From the NCBI GenBank assembly GCA_946403755.1, contig CAMJBC010000002.1, positions 62,001 through 126,000 of the forward strand: a DNA stretch of 64,000 bases, in the 5' to 3' direction. The DNA is from an uncultured Mycoplasmatota bacterium (lineage in GTDB: Bacteria > Bacillota_I > Bacilli_A > RF39 > UBA660). The position numbers and the translations under genes are program-made. A model generated the notes under the pieces. That model was not told the DNA's origin and ran no database searches. It worked only from the letters and a program-made list of their open reading frames with translations. This document shows, piece after piece, positions 51,851 to 57,951 of this stretch; positions within the stretch are counted from its first letter, which is position 1, and the number at the start of each line of letters is the position of its first letter.

Positions 51851-51879
51851 TTGACATTATAATCCATATATTATAAAAT
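51851..51879 (+). promoter_or_regulatory. Promoter of tandem ncRNA copy 1
   Basis: TTGACA (51851..51856) - 17 nt - TAAAAT (51874..51879). Confidence 0.75.
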
Positions 51880-51885
51880 AAAATT

Positions 51886-52631
51886 GTCCAATAGATAACA
51901 AGCTAATTTTAATTAATTAGCACACAATATTTATTAAGACACTAATATATTATTGTAAATATATCCCTTATATTAATATTATATATTTAATTATATATAA
52001 TCTATTAATACAATATATATTTAATTTGTAGAAATACTCAAAAATATAATATATCTATTCTTAATTAAAATATTTTAGTTATCAAGTGAAATAATTCTAT
52101 AGTTGTTATATTTAATTATATAACAATATATGTAATATTAATTTATTACATATACTACCTATTATAAATAACTAAAGTTATTTATAATATAGTTATTAAT
52201 AATACTAATACTATTATTAATAAATAATATATATATTATCTTATATATTAATTTATATAAATAATCCCTATATATTATATAAATATTACTAATACTAATA
52301 TTTATCTAGTATAATTAAGTATTATAGAATATATAATATTTGGACTTGTTATTTGTATCATATTATTAATATTAATTTATTAATAATATGAATACTTCAA
52401 TAACATTCCTTGTATAACAACATTTCTTATTTTTATAAGATATAGAATAACTTATCTACTAAGGACAAATGGTATATCGTTGAGAAAGAAAACTCAAAAT
52501 GATAAGTGATAATGCTGAATACTGATAATATTCAGAAGTGTTAATAATAAAGTAATATTTATTATTAATGATTCATTATTCTTTTTCGGAAACTCGAAGC
52601 AACTACTTTTTATCAGAAAGGGTTGCTTTTT
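51886..52631 (+). ncRNA. Large structured non-coding RNA, copy 1 (~746 nt)
   Basis: No ORF; promoter upstream; at least nine strong hairpins; 3' core near-identical to copy 2; AAGCAAC...GTTGCTTTTT terminator. Confidence 0.8.
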
Positions 52632-52647
52632 GATTACAGGAGAAACT

Positions 52648-53016
52648 ATGAGATATTATATAATTTTTGGTGTTACTATTATTCTAGCAATATTTATTTT
52701 ATTCTTTGATCCTTATAAAGATTATCTTGGCGTATATAAAAATTCAGCAACATTAGAATATACACAAAAAGAAGAAGGATATGAATGGGTTTTAATTCCT
52801 TCTAATGATAATTTAATTGTAAAGGAAGAAAATAATAATAAATGGACTATTCATATTAATAAAGTTGGTGAAACAGATATTGAAGCTAACTTCATTAATT
52901 TAGATACTAATGATATAAAATATAAGATAAATTATAAGTTCGACAATAACGGTAAAAAGCTGTTTTGGCTAGATGGAATGGCCAAAGGATTAGATGATTT
53001 TATTAATCCATATTAA
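52648..53016 (+). CDS. Small membrane-anchored protein, unknown
   Basis: ATG at 52648 with AGGAG RBS; TM YYIIFGVTIILAIFILFF then beta-rich-looking domain. ORF track starts at 52630. Confidence 0.6.
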   Translation: MRYYIIFGVTIILAIFILFFDPYKDYLGVYKNSATLEYTQKEEGYEWVLIPSNDNLIVKEENNNKWTIHINKVGETDIEANFINLDTNDIKYKINYKFDNNGKKLFWLDGMAKGLDDFINPY

Positions 53017-53044
53017 TATAAGTGTAAACTTATATTTTTTTTTA
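53015..53044 (+). terminator. Intrinsic terminator
   Basis: AATATAAG-TGTAAA-CTTATATT then T-run. Confidence 0.85.
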
Positions 53045-53053
53045 ATTTGGTCA

Positions 53054-53082
53054 TTGACATTTAAATATATATATTATACAAT
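53054..53082 (+). promoter_or_regulatory. Promoter of tandem ncRNA copy 2
   Basis: TTGACA (53054..53059) - 17 nt - TACAAT (53077..53082). Confidence 0.8.
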
Positions 53083-53087
53083 TAACT

Positions 53088-53855
53088 TGTCCAATAGATA
53101 ATTTTAGTAGGTTTTACTACAGTTATTATTTTTATTAGACGTATATATTTTTTTTAAAATATTATTTATATTAATTTATTTATAATATTACTTATATACA
53201 CTTAATATATTTAACTATATATTAATTATCTAATATTTTTAATAATTAATTATCAAGTGAAATAATTCTATGGTTGTTATATTTGATCATATAACAATAA
53301 AGTAATAATTTAATTTTTATATTTTATATTATTATTAAGTTAATTTTATATCTTATATTAATTGTTACTTATTATAAATAATATTAATTTATTATTTATA
53401 ATTATAGATTATATTTTTAGATATTAATAATATTTATTAATTTAACTATTATTAATAAAATATATATTAATTTATATATTTTAATATTACTAATACTAAT
53501 ATTTATCTAATTTATATTTTTAATCTATATTTTTTATTACTTATATTATGATTGAGTATTATAGAATATGATATTTGGACTTGTTATCCAGTTCATATTA
53601 TTAATATTAATTTATTAATAATATGATTACTCTATAACATTCCTTGTATAACAACATCTTTATTTTAAGACATAGAATAACTTATCTACTAAGGACAAAT
53701 GGTATATCGTTGAGAAAGAAAACTCAAAATGATAAGTGATTATGCTGAATACTGATAATATTCAGATTAATTAATAATTTAACTATTATTAATGATTCAT
53801 AATTCTTTTCGAAAACTCGAAGCAATTTGCTTTATCAGAGCGGGTTGCTTTTTTG
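53088..53855 (+). ncRNA. Large structured non-coding RNA, copy 2 (~765 nt)
   Basis: Paralogous to 51886..52631: TGTCCAATAGATAA start, shared hairpins, 94-nt core with one mismatch, terminator AGCAATTTGCTTTATCAGAGCGGGTTGCTTTTTT. Confidence 0.8.
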
Positions 53856-53953
53856 TTGGTGTAAAATAGTATTTTATTAATGTTATACATAAATTTTATG
53901 GTTTATGTATATTTTTTTATTAATTTGTGTTATTATTATAATGGAGGTAGGAT

Positions 53954-56919: not shown

Positions 56920-57435
56920 TTATTTAAAATTACTAATTATTTTAGCAACTATGAATACTATTTCATCACTGTTCTTAGTTGCATATTTTTTTCCTATAGC
57001 TTTACCACCAACTGTTAAAGATGATATTAATGAACTAATTACTAAAGTAGTAAGAACTACATTTATAAATAAAGAATTTGCAATATATATAGATAATATT
57101 GCTCCACAAGAACCACTTATTATTCCACATATATCTCCAATTACATCATTACATATACTAGCTATTCTAGGAGAATTTTTAATTAATTGAACTCCTTCTT
57201 TTGAACCTTTTATCTTCTTAGCACTTTTAGCATGAAAAGTTGATTCGTTAGCTGTTAATACAGCAGTACCAATTATATCAAATAAAACTCCAAATAGTAT
57301 AAAGAATATTGTAATGATAATTAAAACTATTACATTATTGCATCTGTTTATAATGACATTTGATAAGCTACTAAAAATTATAGCTATAAAAAAAGTCATT
57401 AAAAATGCTTTAATGATCCAATTATCTTTTGACAT
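56920..57435 (-). CDS. Multi-pass membrane protein, unknown
   Basis: 171-aa hydrophobic ORF with GGGAG RBS. Confidence 0.6.
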   Translation of the reverse strand: MSKDNWIIKAFLMTFFIAIIFSSLSNVIINRCNNVIVLIIITIFFILFGVLFDIIGTAVLTANESTFHAKSAKKIKGSKEGVQLIKNSPRIASICNDVIGDICGIISGSCGAILSIYIANSLFINVVLTTLVISSLISSLTVGGKAIGKKYATKNSDEIVFIVAKIISNFK

Positions 57436-57480
57436 TTTAATAACTCCCTAAGTAAAAATTGTATGGAATATTATAAATTA

Positions 57481-57917
57481 ATTTTACGGCTTTGGTCGAG
57501 TTGAATTTCTCTAGTATTTACTCTTGGTTACCCGTAAGCGATTTCTCTTTGAAAATACTAACCATATGTTACCGCGTATGATCACTCGATCACCACTTAG
57601 TCCGCACTTCAATCCTTATAATAAAGACACACTAGAGGTTTTCCCAAACAAACTTGTACTACTTTTATTCGCTTTTGCAAATTATTTTTCAATTACTATC
57701 CCAATAATTCACTCACGACATGTACGTTCATATCCTCTGGAATGAAAAAAGGAAGCCGATATATGCCGTTACATCTTTTCCTCATTTCTTAAATCATATA
57801 TATGCCCCAATCTGGGCGAATGAAGCAAAATATATAAAGTACCTATTTGTACAATTAATGGATTTTTAGCCCCATCTTCTAGTAGTATGTTTGACTAGCA
57901 TAGTGCTCCACACACAT
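57481..57917 (-). ncRNA. Unassigned structured RNA or very long 5' leader
   Basis: No convincing ORF, higher GC than flanks, local stems (e.g. TGATC-GAGT-GATCA, TAGTATTT/AAATACTA), perfect consensus promoter upstream. Confidence 0.6.
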
Positions 57918-57922
57918 AAGAA

Positions 57923-57951
57923 ATTATATCACACTTTACATAATTTGTCAA
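57923..57951 (-). promoter_or_regulatory. Consensus sigma-A-type promoter
   Basis: Minus strand TTGACA (57951..57946) - 17 nt - TATAAT (57928..57923). Confidence 0.85.

Follow-up and report, generated by a model that had tools for sequence, protein, structure and literature searches.

Which class of RNA is encoded by the two tandem units at positions 51886-53855 of the DNA studied here, and do these RNAs work as free-standing molecules or as leaders of the genes behind them? The DNA, hereafter the window, is a stretch of 64,000 nucleotides from an uncultured Mycoplasmatota bacterium (contig CAMJBC010000002.1). The first-pass annotation had described the units as two paralogous non-coding RNAs, each with its own promoter and terminator, to which no class could be assigned. 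The sequence of both units matches that description, and the class can now be named. Their cores scored 85.4 and 87.2 bits with the Rfam covariance model of PGK RNA (RF03040), a similarity beyond chance because the gathering score of this model is 50.8 bits. This confident match places the element in a known family, and the element itself stands. The class is thus already known to Rfam, but it is filed there as cis-regulatory and with three hairpins only. From a comparison of about 120 relatives, with 101 hits in one gut-bacterial family, we conclude that PGK RNA is most probably a free-standing molecule that forms dimers, some homomeric and others heteromeric.

Unit 1 extends from 51886 to about 52632 on the forward strand, as do all features of the two units, and is preceded by a TTGACA box (51851-51856) and, after a 17-nt spacer, a TAAAAT box (51874-51879). 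Unit 2 extends from 53089 to about 53855 behind TTGACA (53054-53059), again 17 nt, and TACAAT (53077-53082), so that both promoters previously proposed were located, at 51851-51879 and 53054-53082. The two RNAs have a common 5′ start, TTGTCCAATAGATAA, and a mid block, TATCAAGTGAAATAATTCTAT[AG]GTTGTTATATTT, both of which the first-pass annotation had pointed out. The PGK cores lie at 52443-52535 and 53673-53765 behind AT-rich 5′ parts of approximately 560 nt and 590 nt, respectively. The 94-nt 3′ core that had been read with one mismatch indeed differs between the units by a single base (T/A, in P4). The terminator hairpin of unit 1 (52597-52631), preceded by a conserved AAACUCG motif (52590-52596), exposes the loop UUAUCAG at 52610-52616, and the same loop is found at 53832-53838 in unit 2. 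In the terminator stem beside this loop, one U-A pair changes to C-G and another to G-C between the units, confirming the compensatory change noticed earlier. Neither unit is covered by a long open reading frame (ORF) in the ORF listing. Compared with dinucleotide shuffles (20 for each unit), the predicted folds are stable, with z = -11.6 for unit 1 and -10.6 for unit 2.

The 92-nt core of the window is that of the family, with identical P1, P2 and P3 hairpins, and covariation was found for these three hairpins. P1 (helix 1), formed by CUUAUC and GAUAAG (52451-52456 with 52501-52506 in unit 1; 53681-53686 with 53731-53736 in unit 2), is 93% paired, and five of its six pairs have changed on both sides. 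P2 (UUGAG/CUCAA; 52480-52497 in unit 1) is 99.5% paired over its inner three pairs. P3 (helix 5; 52515-52535 in unit 1), at which the Rfam model ends, carries the loop CUGAUAA (52522-52528 and 53752-53758). The comparison supports several features beyond this definition, namely own promoters, the helices P0 and P4, complementarity of the P3 and terminator loops, a covarying palindrome and paired A:B forms. P4 links the stretch behind P1b to the stretch ahead of the conserved AAACU motif. In unit 1 it joins GAUAAUG (52508-52514) to CAUUAUU (52574-52580), and in unit 2 GAUUAUG (53738-53744) to CAUAAUU (53798-53804). P4 covaries and scored 13.8 with its own partners against 10.9 with swapped ones.

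P0 joins the 5′ end of the RNA to a core segment between P1a and P2, over a distance of 85-790 nt. It is indicated in the window both by family covariation and by the minimum free energy (MFE) fold: UUGUCC (51884-51889; 53087-53092) pairs with GGACAA (52463-52468; 53693-53698). Since P0 crosses P1, the fold is a pseudoknot. Elsewhere, the helix takes forms such as CUUAG/CUAAG, UUGAACCUAG/CUAGGUUCAA and GUUUAGAG/CUCUAAAC. The pairing score of P0 was 16.3 with the own partner, as opposed to 12.1 ± 3.4 when partners were swapped between genomes, and a P0 of 7-12 bp was present in all 15 loci that had a detected promoter and were newly found with R1 alone, a broader model made from 55 cores. P0 also emerges independently from the MFE folds of units 1 and 2, lengthened by UAGAUAA/UUAUCUA. 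The 5′ UAGAUAA (within 51884-51899) can pair with the UUAUCUA of P1a (within 52451-52468), and a P0 extended in this way would take the place of P1 and might act as a switch in this genus. The first-pass annotation had instead closed a 5′ domain by a GTCCAA/TTGGAC helix. Both motifs are present, but when all 21 units of the genus are compared, the two copies of this genome are the only ones with the TTGGAC...GTTAT block and the mid block in corresponding positions. In the MFE fold, UUGUCC pairs with GGACAA, so that GTCC meets the GGAC of the core, and we rejected the proposed helix.

The loop of P3 and the loop of the terminator, CUGAUAA and UUAUCAG, form seven complementary pairs, which hold in 99% of cells. 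U-A is replaced by C-G in seven sequences, and two loci (L026 and L164) carry the variant pair CUAGUAA/UUACUAG. These two loci, which have no palindrome at the octamer position described below, form a third subtype. The terminator stem itself was misaligned by MAFFT (34.7% paired) and was left out of the evidence. This loop complementarity, the P0 pseudoknot and the palindrome had all been overlooked by the first-pass annotation.

Between P0b and P2, both window units contain the self-complementary octamer GGUAUAUC (52471-52478 and 53701-53708), our proposed dimer interface. Among the relatives, the octamer changes its sequence yet stays self-complementary, with ACAAUUGU, GAUAUAUC, AUGUACAU and AUGAUCAU among the variants. 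With G.U allowed, 87 of 98 octamers are fully self-complementary, and the central four bases are so in 96 of 98. When only distinct octamers are considered, 19 of 28 are self-complementary, as compared with a mean of 3.9 and a maximum of 11 in 2000 swaps of the right halves. All 70 of 70 aligned rows have complementary bases at the two central, adjacent positions, with five pair types among them. Because neighbours on a single strand are unable to pair with each other, the octamer is predicted to pair between molecules. PGK RNA has the covarying palindrome of adjacent bases that is known for the intermolecular contacts of homo-oligomeric ornate RNAs, and the resemblance to oligomeric bacterial RNAs that had been suggested for the locus is supported as one of kind. 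We rejected the idea that the palindrome finds its partner in a second copy on its own transcript, as such a copy was found in 2 of 85 cases against 1.3 expected, which is not above chance. Two genomes each have two copies whose palindromes are unable to cross-pair (ACAAUUGU and GCGCGCGU in G244, loci L087 and L110; ACAAUUGU and AUGAUCAU in G182, loci L099 and L134), as if two dimers were kept separate.

In a set of genera, which we term subtype II, the octamer is divided between two genes. RNA A has no palindrome, and its own terminator lacks UUAUCAG. A separate RNA B was found near A in 10 of 12 loci, either downstream, upstream or convergent, and bears its own UUAUCAG hairpin as well as an octamer, just before its P2, that is complementary to the octamer of A. 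The A/B octamers are AAUUGUAAUUUUU/AAAAAUUACAAUU in G404, UUGUAAUUUCA/UGAAAUUACAA in G380, CUGUAACC/GGUUACAG in G771 and G811, and CUGUAACU/AGUUGCAG in G450. A separate case is genus g35, in which two ordinary copies, each on its own contig, have the reciprocal sequences AUAAUUGU and ACAAUUAU; ACAAUUAU self-pairs over 4 bp only, whereas the two together pair over 12. Subtype II and the g35 paralogues show the behaviour that would be expected of a dimer interface after duplication.

Is the RNA free-standing, or a leader? Of 99 homologues, 75 have a strict promoter within 360 nt upstream on the strand of the RNA; the opposite strand has one in 6 cases and the downstream control in 9 of 97. The distance from the -10 box to the start of the core ranges from 85 to 790 nt. 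The shortest predicted PGK transcripts measure approximately 275-300 nt, a length shared by many relatives. The 560-590 nt of AT-rich sequence on the 5′ side of the window copies can thus be regarded as a variable insertion, which nonetheless folds well. Large size and ornateness, taken earlier as a class trait, are not supported as a property of the family. A cis-regulatory leader, i.e., a riboswitch or attenuator whose core controls the terminator, with read-through allowing expression of the gene behind it, is the cis-regulatory type listed by Rfam, and it would suit both the integration of the terminator into the fold via its loop and the small-protein gene that, in this genus, follows the terminator of unit 1 at a distance of about 20 nt and has a ribosome-binding site. 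We consider it unlikely. The type is an annotation rather than a structural definition, and the leader position that it implies, ahead of pgk or another gene, was not borne out, because the next genes vary or converge and pgk has its own promoter. The downstream genes include pgk, murG, spoIVA, a PrsA-like/PPIase gene, a sigma factor gene and a coat-like gene, among others; a perfect TTGACA-N17-TATAAT stands between the RNA terminator and pgk (L003, L068); and at five loci the neighbour behind the RNA is a convergent gene less than 100 nt away. The spoIVA gene lies downstream on the same strand in one genus and convergent to the RNA in another. Unit 2 is followed by a second hairpin with a U-run and then by a Fic gene. 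Moreover, the loop-loop contact is possible only once the terminator hairpin has formed, and both the covarying palindrome and a separate RNA B would be superfluous for a leader.

The palindrome could also be a dyad at the DNA level, lying within the RNA gene and serving, for instance, as the operator of a dimeric protein. Regulators that are dimers do recognise dyads, and such sites can drift along with the regulator. This general consideration is outweighed by the departures of the octamer from Watson-Crick symmetry, 21 being G.U and 6 other mismatches, as predicted for RNA rather than for a DNA dyad. Additionally, the position of the octamer is fixed relative to P2, and complementarity persists in the A:B subtype across two genes, neither of which has symmetry of its own. 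We regard the DNA dyad as very improbable. Slightly less remote, albeit still improbable, is that the architecture is right and the RNA monomeric, with the octamer pairing to an mRNA or a second non-coding RNA, or with the extended palindrome forming a small hairpin. Some palindromes reach 12 nt (UUACAAUUGUAA) and could form a hairpin of 4 bp around a 4-nt loop. However, the outer two pairs alone would be too weak for a hairpin in most sequences, a hairpin loop does not need the self-complementarity of the central four bases, and a foreign target leaves the symmetry unexplained.

Several observations weigh against a stand-alone dimer with homomeric and heteromeric forms. The octamer of the window, GGUAUAUC, includes G.U pairs, which would make its self-duplex weaker. 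In this genus, about 20 nt separate the terminator of unit 1 from the next gene, too few for a promoter, and read-through could still serve this small gene. Sequence counts are not counts of independent events, which the row counts overstate, as related sequences share changes. The mean A:B score of 20.3, against 10.6 ± 2.4 with shuffled B, is not blind, since the B sites were picked by eye and by complementarity; what supports A:B pairing is where the B octamer lies, beside P2 and ahead of the UUAUCAG hairpin. In G756 and G793, A and B pair over no more than 6 bp, a score that about 10% of the shuffled Bs reach. No B was found within 6 kb of two subtype-II loci, L181 and L182. A genome-wide search with one narrow pattern found B in G404 only; it missed known Bs and gave none for L181 and L182.

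Weighing these points, we hold it probable that PGK RNA is a knotted, stand-alone RNA with its own promoter and terminator that dimerises via the octamer, this being the best explanation of the whole. Transcription, actual dimerisation and the cis or trans arrangement of the loop contact are what we infer from the conserved features. Each unit would be transcribed from its own sigma-A-type promoter to the intrinsic terminator. The 5′ end would fold onto the core through P0, crossing P1 to form the pseudoknot, and P2, P3 and P4 would complete the core. The P3 loop would then kiss the terminator loop, binding the 3′ end to the core, and the octamer would pair with its identical counterpart in another RNA molecule. 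In the window, the dimer could be a homodimer or a mixture of units 1 and 2, as both carry GGUAUAUC. In the sister subtype, the diverged A and B would dimerise through their mutually complementary octamers, with the CUGAUAA loop supplied by A and the UUAUCAG hairpin by B. The loop-loop contact is probably intermolecular there, because the two loops are held by different RNAs, and it may be intermolecular in the homodimer, too. We lean, by a narrow margin over even chances, towards both contacts (the octamer duplex and the P3-terminator kiss) being intermolecular and duplication having produced an obligate heterodimer at least twice, in subtype II and in the g35 paralogues. As to function, we guess that PGK RNA acts in trans, as a scaffold or as the RNA of a ribonucleoprotein, instead of leading the gene behind it, any specific role being tentative.

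PGK RNA was present in 18 of 18 sampled genomes of the genus to which the window belongs, several of them with tandem copies. In the order sample, 74 of 386 genomes carry it, all within the family of the window. R1 matched 48 of 295 genomes in the family; the phylum sample yielded 2 of 299, and both of these belong to that family. We therefore rejected a wide spread, as members found with RF03040 and R1 are confined to this family; the named genomes with matches are mostly uncultured Bacilli of rumen and rabbit gut. A viral or phage origin was also discarded, since five viral contigs and five odd genomes fitted a loose DNA pattern and none was PGK RNA by Rfam, pointing to chance. PGK RNA was reportedly first described by Weinberg et al. 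in 2017; our literature search, whose reach did not extend to the original description, found no paper on the family.

Directly 3′ of the unit 1 terminator lies the gene (52651-53016, forward strand) of a small membrane-anchored protein (MRYYIIFGVT...), which is kept behind most units of the genus and for which no Pfam family exceeded its cut-off. The protein is a possible partner or client of PGK RNA in this genus. The second, simple hairpin with a U-run 3′ of unit 2 (TATACATAAA...TTTATGTATATTTTTTT; 53884-53920, forward strand) was also observed behind the second copies in G001, G004 and G008, and the gene that follows it encodes a Fic-domain protein with a winged-helix-like end.

ROOL, GOLLD and OLE had been named as classes that the locus recalls, and none of the respective models, including that of OLE (RF01071), matches 51886-53855. 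A scan of the whole window with 4227 Rfam families returned only OLE, PGK and the small signal recognition particle (SRP) RNA, and membership in ROOL or GOLLD was rejected. The OLE RNA (221.6 bits) lies on the reverse strand at 57447-57927, approximately 4 kb from the PGK RNAs, and is shorter than the model, like the published variant of the RF39 clade (PMC11332333), which makes an RF39-type source organism likely. Just downstream, the ORF at 56920-57435 on the same strand encodes a small CNNM-like membrane protein, probably OapA. We claim no linkage between PGK and OLE RNAs, which are adjacent by synteny in the genus and on different contigs in G079.

OLE, ROOL and GOLLD are nevertheless of the same kind, as structured bacterial RNAs that form RNA-only homo-oligomers (PMC12286853), a state that is predicted for PGK RNA. 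Adjacent bases covary in the palindromic loops L9.3 of OLE and L21a of GOLLD, from which intermolecular pairing was inferred by the authors, and the OLE and GOLLD contacts were seen by cryo-EM (PMC12286853). Sequence and fold are unrelated, and the conserved part of PGK RNA is much shorter. PGK RNA also differs in its loop-terminator complementarity and its separately encoded complementary partners; the word heterodimer is absent from PMC12286853. The kissing dimer at the dimerisation initiation site (DIS) of HIV-1 likewise makes an RNA homodimer through a palindromic contact (PMC7357161), albeit in a hairpin loop of a viral genomic RNA, whereas PGK RNA is a cellular non-coding RNA with its palindrome between P0 and P2.

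According to the literature, RNA multimers are rare in nature, and for a long time no biological relevance had been demonstrated for them outside viruses (PMC12286853, PMC7357161). In PGK RNA, a motif catalogued as cis-regulatory is reclassified as an independent gene, and sequence evolution acts as a compensatory-mutation experiment in which the contact changes its letters and keeps its complementarity. Where one RNA became two genes, the contact divides into two matched halves. PGK RNA could thus serve as a short model RNA for the evolution of RNA quaternary structure and, if the heterodimers did arise by duplication as proposed, would provide an RNA counterpart to the route from homomer to heteromer taken by proteins.
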